NCBI GenBank assembly: GCA_026414745.1
Contig: JAOAIK010000040.1
Coordinates: forward strand, 124,001-188,000
Length of the DNA: 64,000 nucleotides
Direction: 5' to 3'
Source: Roseococcus sp.
GTDB taxonomy: Bacteria > Pseudomonadota > Alphaproteobacteria > Acetobacterales > Acetobacteraceae
A program made the position numbers and the translations under genes. Numbering within the stretch: position 1 is the stretch's first letter; each line of letters opens with the position of its first letter. Of this stretch, positions 20,135 to 64,000 are shown piece after piece. The notes beneath the pieces were generated by a model that had not been told where the DNA came from, searched no databases, and worked only from the letters and a program-made list of their open reading frames with translations.

Positions 20135-20162
20135 GCGTCCTGGTGGCTCGGGGCGGAGGGGT

Positions 20163-20257
20163 GGAAGGCCGGTGAGCGACCCGAGCGAGAACCCGTTACG
20201 GCTGCTTCCTTCCGGACCTGACCGGGTTGGCGGGGAGCCCGTCCGCGCCGACCTTCC
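20163..20257 (-). ncRNA. ffs: Small signal recognition particle RNA (4.5S type)
   Basis: Read on the minus strand, the universally conserved apical element GGTCAGGTCCGGAAGGAAGC is intact (about 20223-20203). It is enclosed by AACCCG and CGGGTT. The ends pair over 10 bp: GGAAGGTCGG at 20257-20248 with CCGGCCTTCC at 20172-20163 (one G-U). This gives a 95-nt hairpin of the right size. The RNA binds Ffh for co-translational membrane targeting. A position just upstream of dnaX is common in alphaproteobacteria. Exact ends are inferred from the pairing and a -10 box 7 nt upstream. Confidence 0.93.
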
Positions 20258-61498: not shown

Positions 61499-62112
61499 CG
61501 CACCGCCGCAGCCTGCTCGCCCTGTCCTTCCTCGCACCCGGCCTTGCCGCCGCCCGCGCCGCCTTCCTGCCCGAGGCCGAGGGGGTGGCGCTGCTGCGCG
61601 CCGGCGGGCTGAACCTCTACATCCGCCACGCCATCACCGACCGCACGCAGCTGGACACCGGCCGGCGCGGCGACCGCGCGGGGCAGCGCAACCTCAGCGA
61701 GGCGGGCCGCCGCCAGGCCATCCGGCTGGGCGAGGCCTTCCGCGCGCTTCGCATCCCCGTGGCGGAAGTGCTGACGAGCGAGGTGTTCCGCGCCCTCGAC
61801 ACGGCCGAGCTCGCCTTCGGCGCGGCGCGGGTGCGGGTGGAGCGCGACCTGATCGCCGACGACTACACCCCCGGCGATGCGCGGGAGGATGCGCGGGCCG
61901 TCTCCCGCCGCCTGGGCGAGCCGGTGGCGGGCGGCAACCGGGTGATGGTGGGGCACATCGTCCCGCTGGGCATGATCCTGGGCCGGAGCCTCGCGCAGGA
62001 GGAGTTCCCGGAGGGCGGGCTCGCCCTGTTCCGCCCGCTGGGCGGGCGCTGGGAGCATCCGGGCATGGTCTCGGCCGAGCAGCTGTTCCGCGCCGCCGGG
62101 CTGCCGGGCTGA
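61495..62112 (+). CDS. Exported histidine phosphatase family protein
   Basis: A 205-residue protein with a signal peptide (MTHRRSLLALSFLAPGLAAARA, perhaps Tat) and a histidine-phosphatase core: LNLYIRHAITDRTQ carries the nucleophile His in an RHA rather than RHG motif, then NLSEAGRRQAIRLGEAF, LTSEVFRALDTAELAFG and the late catalytic His in NRVMVGHIVPLGM. Substrate unknown. It follows mutL by 38 nt. Confidence 0.85.
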   Translation: MTHRRSLLALSFLAPGLAAARAAFLPEAEGVALLRAGGLNLYIRHAITDRTQLDTGRRGDRAGQRNLSEAGRRQAIRLGEAFRALRIPVAEVLTSEVFRALDTAELAFGAARVRVERDLIADDYTPGDAREDARAVSRRLGEPVAGGNRVMVGHIVPLGMILGRSLAQEEFPEGGLALFRPLGGRWEHPGMVSAEQLFRAAGLPG

Positions 62113-62438
62113 GACGGGCGGCATGCCGCGCCCCCCCCCTTTGACGCGCAGGGGCGGCGAGGCGGCGGCGCGCTGGAACGCAGGCGCGCCGAAAAGGGTT
62201 GAACCGCGCCGCGCGCTGGGGCATCTGCGCGGTGGTTGCCGGCTTCGGCCGGCGTCAGGAACGGAACCGAATGGACTGCCACCAACGCCGTGGCGCCCTC
62301 CGCCCGAGGCGGCCGGGGGCGCCCCGGCCCACAGCACAGGGTCTGCCGGCGCTGCGGCGCCGGGCGTTCCGGTCGGGGCCCCTGCCCGCCTGACCACGCC
62401 CGCCTCCGCAAGGCCGACCCGGCCCGAGGAGGTGCACG
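62113..62438. other. 326 bp upstream of the mgtE leader, no gene recognised
   Basis: A G+C rich stretch with a C8 run (62131-62138), then TTGAAC (62199-62204) as a weak -35 candidate and two GGAAC motifs. No known riboswitch pattern was recognised, including the M-box. It probably contains the mgtE promoter. A long plus-strand open frame crosses it, but its residues are low-complexity and it has no ribosome site. Confidence 0.4.
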
Positions 62439-62579
62439 ATGCGTCTCTTTGCCGCCCTTCGGCGCCGCTGGCTTCCTGCCGCCGCGCCGCGAACCCGCCC
62501 CGGCCCGGAGCTGGTCTGGGCCGGCGTGGTGCGCCTGCGCCTCTCCCGCGCGCGCGCCTTGAGCCCCATCCCCCAGTGA
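62439..62579 (+). CDS. Leader ORF A upstream of mgtE (46 residues)
   Basis: Begins MRLFAALRRRWLPAAAPRT and ends LSPIPQ. A GAGGAGGT ribosome site, the closest match to the anti-Shine-Dalgarno sequence I saw in this window, stands 5 nt before the ATG. The product is Arg- and Pro-rich with no signal peptide and no known family. Its stop lies 11 nt before leader ORF B. The strong ribosome site argues for real translation; a regulatory leader peptide is more likely than a functional protein. Confidence 0.5.
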   Translation: MRLFAALRRRWLPAAAPRTRPGPELVWAGVVRLRLSRARALSPIPQ

Positions 62580-62590
62580 CGGAGGCCGCC

Positions 62591-62713
62591 ATGGACGAAG
62601 GCAGTAGTCCGGCGGCCGTGCCGCCGGCACGCGGCGCGGCCCGCCCCTCCCCGCCATCCCTTTCCCTGATCCGCGCCCGCCCGGGGCGCGGCCGCGCCAC
62701 CCCCATGCGGTGA
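62591..62713 (+). CDS. Leader ORF B upstream of mgtE (40 residues)
   Basis: Starts MDEGSSPAAVPPARG and ends RGRATPMR. CGGAGG lies 5 nt before the ATG. Acidic residues at positions 2-3 followed by spaced prolines recall sequences known to destabilise translating ribosomes, as in the enterobacterial mgtA leader peptide. The stop codon is 6 nt before a hairpin that covers the mgtE ribosome site. Could also be chance open reading in G+C rich DNA. Confidence 0.5.
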   Translation: MDEGSSPAAVPPARGAARPSPPSLSLIRARPGRGRATPMR

Positions 62714-62718
62714 GCGGC

Positions 62719-62746
62719 CGTCTCCGGCCGGGCCCGACCGGAGACG
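62719..62746 (+). promoter_or_regulatory. Hairpin sequestering the mgtE Shine-Dalgarno sequence
   Basis: CGTCTCCGG (62719-62727) and CCGGAGACG (62738-62746) form a perfect 9-bp stem with a 10-nt loop. The mgtE ribosome site GGAG (62740-62743) is inside the 3' arm. A folded hairpin would block mgtE translation. Ribosomes finishing leader ORF B at 62713 would reach the foot of the stem. Confidence 0.6.
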
Positions 62747-62750
62747 ACCC

Positions 62751-64000
62751 ATGACCCTGCGCGCCGAAGCCGCCGCCATCGCGGCCTTCCTCGCCCGCGA
62801 CGACGCGGGCTCCGCCGCCGCCGCCCTGGAGGGGCTGCACCCGAGCCTCGTCGCCCATCTCCTCGGCGACCTCACCGCCGCCGAGGCGGTGCGCGCCCTC
62901 TCCCTGCTGCCGGTTCGCCGCCGCGCCCAGGTCTTCGGCTATCTGGAGCCGCCCGAGCAGCTCCGCCTCGCCGCCGTGATGCCGCGCGAGGCGCTCGGCG
63001 CGCTCTTCGCCGCCATGGACCCCGACGAGCGCGCCGACCTCTACAAGCGCCTGCCCGAGCCCGTGCGCGAGGCGATCATGCCCGGCCTTGCCGCGGCCGA
63101 GCGCGAGGACATCCGCAAGCTCGCCGCCTATCCCGAGACGCAGGTGGGGGCGGTGATGACCTCCGCCTACGCCGCGCTGCGCGCCGAGCAGACGGCCGCC
63201 GAGGCCATCGAGACGCTGCGCCGCGAGGCGCCGGACCGCGAGACCATCTACGACGCCTATGTGATCGACGAGGGGCGGGCGCTGCTCGGCGTCGTCTCGC
63301 TGCGCGACCTGCTGCTCGCGCCGCCCGAGGCGCGGGTCGGGCGCTTCATGCGCAGCGAGGTGATCAAGGTCGCGGCCGACGCCCCGCGCGCCGAGGCGGT
63401 GCGGCTCATCCGCGAATACGACCTGCTGGCCCTGCCGGTGGTGAACGGGGGCGGCAAGCTGGTCGGCATCGTCACGGCCGATGACGCCATGGACGTGGCC
63501 GAGCGCGAGGAGCTGCGCCGCATCCAGGCCTTCGGCGGCGCGGCCGCGCTGGGCGGGCCCGACCTCGACCTGCTGAACTCGCCGCAGCGGCGCATCTTCT
63601 CCGCGCGCTTCCTCTGGCTCGCCATCCTCACCGTCTTCGGCCTCGGCACCAGCCACATCGTGGCCGGGCAGCAGGAGATCCTGGAGAAGGCCATCGTGCT
63701 CGCCGCCTTCATCGCCCCCATCGTGGACATGGGCGGCAACACCGGCAGCCAGACCGCGACCATGGTGATCCGCGCCATGGCGCTCGGCCAGGTCGCGCTG
63801 CGCTTCGCCGATTTCTGGCGCGTCCTCAAGCGCGACCTGCCGGTGGCGCTGGCGCTCGGCGTCTGCGTGGCGCTGCTCGAGGCGGTGCTGGCCGTCGCCA
63901 CCAAGTCCATCGGCTGGGAGGTGGTGGCGGTGGTGGGCCTCTCCATGCTGGCCTGCACCACGGGCGGCAGCCTGGTCGGCCTCGCGCTCCCCTTCGCGGC
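62751..64000 (+). CDS. mgtE: Magnesium transporter MgtE, 5' part
   Basis: Mg2+ channel whose cytoplasmic domain senses magnesium. The frame is open to the window edge (416 codons visible of about 450). The MgtE N domain (about 1-125) is followed by two CBS domains (VGAVMTSAYAALRAEQTA; VGRFMRSEVIKVAAD, ALPVVNGGGKLVGIVTADDA), then the membrane domain from about residue 285 with the signature PIVDMGGNTGSQTATMVIRA lining the pore. ATG 62751 follows GGAG by 7 nt. Expression is probably controlled by the leader described above. Confidence 0.95.
   Translation, partial: MTLRAEAAAIAAFLARDDAGSAAAALEGLHPSLVAHLLGDLTAAEAVRALSLLPVRRRAQVFGYLEPPEQLRLAAVMPREALGALFAAMDPDERADLYKRLPEPVREAIMPGLAAAEREDIRKLAAYPETQVGAVMTSAYAALRAEQTAAEAIETLRREAPDRETIYDAYVIDEGRALLGVVSLRDLLLAPPEARVGRFMRSEVIKVAADAPRAEAVRLIREYDLLALPVVNGGGKLVGIVTADDAMDVAEREELRRIQAFGGAAALGGPDLDLLNSPQRRIFSARFLWLAILTVFGLGTSHIVAGQQEILEKAIVLAAFIAPIVDMGGNTGSQTATMVIRAMALGQVALRFADFWRVLKRDLPVALALGVCVALLEAVLAVATKSIGWEVVAVVGLSMLACTTGGSLVGLALPFA

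Follow-up and report, generated by a model that had tools for sequence, protein, structure and literature searches.

How do short open reading frames (ORFs) in the leader of an mgtE gene bear on its translation? The question is raised by a 64,000-nt stretch of DNA from Roseococcus sp. (assembly GCA_026414745.1, contig JAOAIK010000040.1, positions 124,001–188,000 of the forward strand), referred to here as the window. Among known Mg2+ leaders, those of the enterobacterial mgtA, the mgtCB operon (in which mgtB encodes a P-type ATPase), and corA are controlled by upstream ORFs (uORFs), and the M-box riboswitch is an RNA leader of Mg2+ transporter genes, including Bacillus mgtE. In the window, model matches assign the gene downstream of the leader to a Mg2+ transporter family, as in leaders of the MgtQ/MgtL type. 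The features of the locus are as follows.

62199–62227, forward strand: weak candidate promoter (TTGAAC-17-CATCTG), 43 nt 5′ of uORF1
62237–62254, forward strand: small 5′ hairpin with a UUCG loop, predicted by folding (z −0.37, no better than shuffles)
62271–62393, forward strand: uORF1, 40 aa, MDCHQRRGALRPRRPGAPRPTAQGLPALRRRAFRSGPLPA, of equal length in Rubritepida flocculans
62401–62434, forward strand: hairpin predicted by folding over the uORF2 Shine-Dalgarno (SD) sequence, CGCCTCC (62401–62407) with GGAGGTG (62428–62434)
62439–62579, forward strand: uORF2 (ORF A), 46 aa, MRLFAALRRRWLPAAAPRTRPGPELVWAGVVRLRLSRARALSPIPQ, kept in R. flocculans
62591–62713, forward strand: uORF3 (ORF B), 40 aa, MDEGSSPAAVPPARGAARPSPPSLSLIRARPGRGRATPMR, with a start, MDEGSS (AGT AGT), common to relatives
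62681–62727, forward strand: predicted competing fold, uORF3 tail (62681–62695) with 62714–62727, occupying the 5′ arm of the SD hairpin
62719–62746, forward strand: SD-sequestering hairpin predicted by folding, 9 bp, with the SD GGAG (62740–62743) within its 3′ arm
62751–64000, forward strand: mgtE, running past the window end; TIGR00400 above cut-off, with MgtE_N, CBS, and MgtE domains

A sequence-only reading of the window had described two leader ORFs followed by a hairpin that hides the mgtE ribosome site. Its coordinates were right for ORF A (ATG 62439 to TGA 62579, 46 aa, GAGGAGGT in front), ORF B (ATG 62591 to TGA 62713, 40 aa, CGGAGG in front), and the mgtE ATG at 62751, and the stem that it named, CGTCTCCGG at 62719–62727 with CCGGAGACG at 62738–62746, is a perfect one of 9 bp. 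Both ORFs are present, and the true count is three, uORF1 (62271–62393) having been overlooked. Leader ORFs so placed that they could control a hairpin at the mgtE ribosome site, as in the enterobacterial Mg2+ leaders, find support in the comparisons below, with a difference in detail: to judge from the sequence, the leader looks like two tandem copies of one device, consisting of a Met-Asp uORF, its stop, an SD hairpin, and the next start. The first copy appears to stand before uORF2 and the second before mgtE, with stop-to-next-start distances of 45 nt (uORF1 to ORF A) and 37 nt (ORF B to mgtE).

The candidate promoter at 62199–62227 has 6 of 12 matches at a spacing of 17 and is not distinguished from an equal-scoring site at 62449, within ORF A; a consensus promoter scan of 62000–62800 listed no site. 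Among 47 leaders of the kind described below, window and R. flocculans included, the best promoter-like site upstream of the uORF exceeded the mean of its own shuffles in 43, which is consistent with transcripts containing the uORF. A small hairpin ahead of the uORF is also found in seven aligned Halomonadaceae leaders.

The nearest named relative of the mgtE gene is that of R. flocculans (88% over residues 1–416). Its leader (L031) holds three ORFs of the same lengths as those of the window (123, 141, and 123 nt), spaced by 45, 11, and 41 nt vs 45, 11, and 37 nt in the window, and the device appears to be stacked in series in both. The ORF starts, whose conservation the sequence-only reading had proposed as a check, recur there, as do the lengths and the stem; the bases of the SD stem are identical in R. 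flocculans, so that two species alone provide no covariation. In the uORF2 SD hairpin, one G–U pair of the window is A–U in R. flocculans. In uORF1, 11 of 123 bases differ, with 5 synonymous and 6 nonsynonymous codon changes; the corresponding codon changes are 7 and 7 in uORF2, and 1 and 17 in uORF3, mostly past residue 18. No synonymous excess was found in the leader ORFs of this pair. That the leader is an ordinary run of small genes, with uORF2 and possibly the other uORFs encoding functional small proteins, is the most remote of the readings weighed here: uORF2 is kept in both species and an ORF stands at the same place in Geminicoccaceae and Chelatococcus/Stappia, but four uORF peptides gave no match in Pfam or NCBIfam, and the C-terminus of uORF3 drifts, yet its stop position is held within 4 nt.

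To place the leader in a wider setting, an MgtE subfamily of 123 genes was defined by tblastn scores of at least 250 bits to P0001 or P0002. The uORF pattern required M[DE] at the start, S after no more than seven residues, and R or C after no more than two further residues drawn from SGRQP, the stop lying 15–110 nt before mgtE. A fitting uORF precedes 42 of the 123 genes (41 loci), against a mean of 2.5 and a maximum of 8 in 30 rounds of shuffling, a count that is partly circular because the pattern was drawn from reading the first loci and widened after L143 and L155 had been seen as misses. The same widened pattern fits 1 of 73 generic mgtE genes and 3 of 210 ORFs from the same loci that served as controls (open frames of at least 200 aa on either strand, as distinct from annotated genes). 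Limiting the stop to 40–70 nt ahead of mgtE leaves 40 of 123 subfamily genes vs 1 of 210 control ORFs; the first, narrower pattern fits 38 of 123 subfamily and 0 of 73 generic genes. Forty-six genes, 33 of them also among the 123, were fetched after the first pattern had been set. Four fit the first pattern (345-nt shuffles: mean 1.3, maximum 6). The widened pattern fits six (shuffles: mean 1.2, maximum 4), among them L143 and L155, already seen before the widening; the later-fetched genes therefore give little independent support for the pattern. The remaining 81 of the 123 genes lack the strict pattern; some have variants, many have nothing similar, and those without the device include several paralogues in the family of G497, so the device belongs to part of the MgtE subfamily. 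A search for the most common words in the leaders returned mostly GC-rich words.

The named carriers belong to the Alpha- and Gammaproteobacteria; examples of their uORF starts, with that of one further locus (L220), are as follows.

MDLPSRC: Pseudomonas sp. (L055)
MEPPSR: Halomonas and Billgrantia
MDVPSSR: Hyphomicrobiaceae bins
MDPSSRP: Alcanivorax
MDLPSSRP: Alishewanella
MDEASGSSR: several Acetobacteraceae
MEDGSSR: Stappia sp. and Chelatococcus
MEPDPSRR: L220

The window itself carries variants: uORF3 begins MDEGSSP and, having no Arg, is missed by the strict pattern, and uORF1 has no AGT Ser. In two Aeromonas loci (L040 and L041), a uORF encoding MDPDPGACTGD lies 5′ of mgtE and is followed by a CCCGA..TCGGG hairpin, which looks like a DPDP variant.

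The peptide start is more regular than the pattern demands. With related species included, as in all peptide and AGT counts here, residue 2 is Asp or Glu in 47 of 96 subfamily uORFs that begin with ATG and end 36–70 nt before the gene, although this was not required of them; the controls gave 0 of 44 for uORFs of generic mgtE genes and 9 of 64 for control genes. Asp, Glu, or Pro occurs at residues 3–5, again outside the demand of the pattern, in each of the 41 different strict-set peptides vs 37 of 82 comparison windows, which are later stretches of the same peptides. Such residues also occupy the first codons in the window, where MDEGSS of uORF3 has two acidic ones. Furthermore, 36 of the 42 uORFs use AGT for the first Ser of the motif, a codon that accounts for 73 of the 938 Ser positions in their mgtE genes; usage so far above that of mgtE implies conservation of the codon, or of the underlying RNA letters, in addition to the residue. 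Codon speed, an RNA element, or another cause are candidate reasons for this AGT retention in the family; the AGT Ser pair of the window lies at 62603–62608.

The second recurring part is the hairpin over the SD. In the window, the spacer (62714–62753) has a folding energy of −22.3 kcal/mol (z −3.45), unmatched by any of 200 shuffles, and none of 200 spacer shuffles pairs equally well with the SD arm; more strictly, when the energy needed to open the SD is compared, 3.5–4% of shuffled spacers match it. The hairpin over the uORF2 SD behaves likewise (z −3.26, 1 of 200 shuffles as good), with an opening cost of 13.7 vs 6.9 kcal/mol in shuffled spacers (p 0.010). For the family, structures were computed for 47 members, namely the 42 strict ones and five variants added by hand (L001, L002, L034, L191, and L193), a set that includes the window and R. 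flocculans and in which the mgtE starts were set by a simple SD rule, some surely wrongly. The SD arm pairs with the post-stop stretch better than with shuffles in 27 of the 47 (p ≤ 0.05; mean z −1.89), and mean SD pairing is 0.75, vs 0.58 in 59 generic mgtE genes. In the spacer alone, the SD costs on average 8.4 kcal/mol to open vs 4.1 kcal/mol when shuffled, with 28 of 46 members at p ≤ 0.05; this and the other 46-member tests exclude L049, whose assigned stop lies 108 nt upstream. For the first-device spacer, before uORF2, p ≤ 0.05 was reached in 6 of 8 loci. The SD stems differ in sequence among the 47 members. RNAalifold on the seven Halomonadaceae leaders gave no support from covariation (term +0.6); both partners had changed in 3 of 44 pairs, all three outside the SD stem. 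In a plain MAFFT alignment of the diverged hairpins, the stems did not come into register.

The position of this hairpin bears on the main rival to the reading preferred below, namely plain translational coupling, whereby a ribosome ending uORF3 would melt the foot of the hairpin, mgtE expression would follow uORF translation, and any fold of the uORF tail would be incidental. The best-pairing 5′ arm starts 0–13 nt past the uORF stop in 41 of the 47 members (4 nt in the window) when the region downstream of the stop is examined, and this distance is within reach of the footprint of a terminating ribosome. We nevertheless consider coupling unlikely on two grounds: combined with destabilization at low Mg2+, it would give the wrong sign for an uptake channel, and the uORF tails hold a competing fold beyond that expected from composition.

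The competing fold emerges when the end of the uORF is included. If the window spacer is extended by 34 nt into the end of uORF3 (62680–62753), the minimum free energy structure is a rival fold, not the SD hairpin; a 4-bp stem in it keeps two of the four SD bases, the first two, paired. The opening cost falls from 8.9 to 4.2 kcal/mol with the native tail, an effect that appears marginal for the window by itself, being equaled by 4–5% of shuffled tails (0.04–0.05) and by 19% of tails swapped in from other members (0.19). Across the 46 members, 60 nt of uORF tail lower the mean SD opening cost to 4.3 kcal/mol, compared with 7.1 kcal/mol for shuffled tails, and the native tail is better than shuffled ones at ≤ 0.05 in 24. 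The strict set includes related species; by shared 11-mers, the 46 members form 21 clusters, between which tails were swapped. Averaged over clusters, the cost was 7.2 kcal/mol with swapped and 4.8 kcal/mol with own tails, the own tail being lower in 18 of 21 clusters (Wilcoxon p 4e-5) and 20 of 46 members reaching ≤ 0.05. At the first device (uORF1 to uORF2), the own tail lowers the cost relative to shuffled ones at ≤ 0.05 in 7 of 8 loci, for example, from 10.9 to 1.3 kcal/mol in L035 and from 14.4 to 2.2 kcal/mol in L034. The mutually exclusive computed folds are significant family-wide and marginal in the window, and in R. flocculans neither device reaches significance (0.15 and 0.74). This whole-ensemble test was not blind, having been adopted after the alternative fold of the window had been seen and after a direct duplex test between the uORF interior and the 5′ arm had proved weak (mean z −0.52, 11 of 47 below −1.64). 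At equilibrium the SD hairpin is still ahead, on average by 4.3 kcal/mol, so that a switch must be kinetic or partial.

Sequence and computed folds show the ORFs, the recurrence of their placement, a hairpin that sequesters the SD, and, across the family, a competing fold. We put at just short of an even chance the reading in which these parts form a ribosome-read translational attenuator that turns mgtE on at low Mg2+. The mRNA would begin upstream of uORF1, and a ribosome starting on a uORF would read Met, an acidic residue, and then acidic, Pro, or Gly residues and Ser decoded from AGU (MDEGSS in uORF3). With ample Mg2+, it would go through, cover the uORF tail, and meet the stop a few nucleotides before the hairpin; the covered tail could not pair with the 5′ arm, the SD hairpin would shut, and mgtE expression would be low. 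With scarce Mg2+, the ribosome would be destabilized on the first codons and drop off, and the bare tail would capture the 5′ arm on its exit from RNA polymerase, leaving the SD free and mgtE translated. The kinetic basis would lie in the order of synthesis, as the tail and the 5′ arm are made ahead of the SD arm. In the window, two such devices would act in series, one before uORF2 and one before mgtE. We infer translation of the uORFs, early ribosome drop-off, Mg2+ as the signal, and the sign of the response; drop-off at low Mg2+ is the likeliest reading because the parts match the logic of Salmonella mgtQ as set out in the available excerpt of PMC8092293.

In that system, experiments have shown a short uORF with acidic residues, a stem over the SD, and a second stem that competes with it when the ribosome leaves the uORF unfinished (PMC8092293, excerpt). 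The likeness extends to a short uORF (with Asp2 and Glu5 in mgtQ) and a transporter SD held in a stem and, as predicted for the leaders described here, to a competing stem involving sequence at the uORF and to translational control. In contrast, mgtQ has 8 aa and lies between mgtC and mgtB in the operon, ahead of mgtB (PMC8092293), whereas the leaders described here have uORFs of 16–41 aa, precede a channel gene, occur outside enterobacteria, carry the AGT Ser codon, and are arranged as tandem devices in the window.

The mgtL leader of mgtA offers a different output for a similar start. According to the excerpt of PMC11282234, the EPDP motif of MgtL is destabilizing and ribosomes drop off it at low Mg2+; a Met-acidic-Pro start is shared with the uORFs found here, and EPDP itself recurs in L220. 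That report has mgtL acting via Rho and transcription, whereas the recurring output here is the SD hairpin. A Rho-dependent attenuator, in which uORF translation governs Rho loading in a C-rich leader and the SD hairpin is secondary, has a precedent in mgtL/corL (PMC11552253, excerpt), and a C-rich, G-poor stretch inside uORF3 (~62640–62672) could load Rho. We regard it as quite improbable, because recurrence of both the SD hairpin and the rival fold across the family speaks for control at the level of translation.

A metal-binding riboswitch, of the M-box kind or like the mgtE motif of Thioalkalivibrio, with the ORFs incidental, has a slender chance of being the right account. The SRC-65-1 mgtE motif of Thioalkalivibrio is presented in the excerpt of PMC11109978 as a strong riboswitch candidate and resembles the present case in being an mgtE leader with the SD and AUG in a stem; compared by its description, it is reported in one genus only, and a uORF goes unmentioned in that excerpt. 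It may perhaps be a local view of the same mgtE leader. Rfam searches at gathering and permissive thresholds matched nothing relevant in the leader or in 14 relative loci, and the M-box model went unmatched, setting the present leader apart from the M-box, with which it shares the role of an RNA leader of Mg2+ transporter genes. Moreover, what the leaders have in common is a start codon, acidic residues at the N-terminus, and a stop codon in a recurring position, which argues against incidental ORFs. In Mycobacterium, a uORF under an M-box is reported (PMC12810186). The sequence-only reading knew of no described leader of this form for mgtE in alphaproteobacteria, and within the open-licence literature searched, much of it by title and abstract, no uORF leader of mgtE was recognized in Proteobacteria, the one near miss being the Thioalkalivibrio mgtE motif (PMC11109978).

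More tentatively, and with the balance of probability against it, the attenuator might be a portable module shared by Alpha- and Gammaproteobacteria, a Mg2+ gauge based on the ribosome in which a start of acidic or Pro residues and AGU-Ser fails at low Mg2+ and a bistable RNA converts the failure into mgtE translation. Should the attenuator reading hold, the principle of uORF-controlled Mg2+ leaders would be broader and would cover the channel-type transporter MgtE as well. The AGT codon would then give a clean handle on whether the threshold depends on the codon besides the peptide, and the rules could be read from sequence in some forty natural variants that differ in their stems and tails.

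Several smaller observations accompany these leaders. In many predicted folds, such as those of L092, L097, L080, and L048, the uORF stop codon lies inside a small hairpin, and the pairing of 62688–62695 with 62714–62721 in the window resembles these stop-enclosing hairpins. In L032 and L039, as well as in G396:C240, G781:C27, and G482:C36, mgtE occurs as two or more adjacent genes; in L032 and L039 each tandem mgtE has its own uORF device, that of the upstream copy in L039 being a variant (MDDGSGSFRT). ORFs of 29 to ~98 aa occupy the uORF2 position after a first device in Geminicoccaceae bins (L033, L035, and L038) and in Chelatococcus/Stappia (L034, L036, and L037), where the preceding first uORF is of the M[DG] type. 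Several of these ORFs have FLP or FVLP near the start, which uORF2 of the window does not, and a uORF2-type ORF is possibly a small regulated protein. Elsewhere in the window, a bacterial small SRP RNA lies at 20160–20257 on the reverse strand (Rfam RF00169, 58.7 bits).
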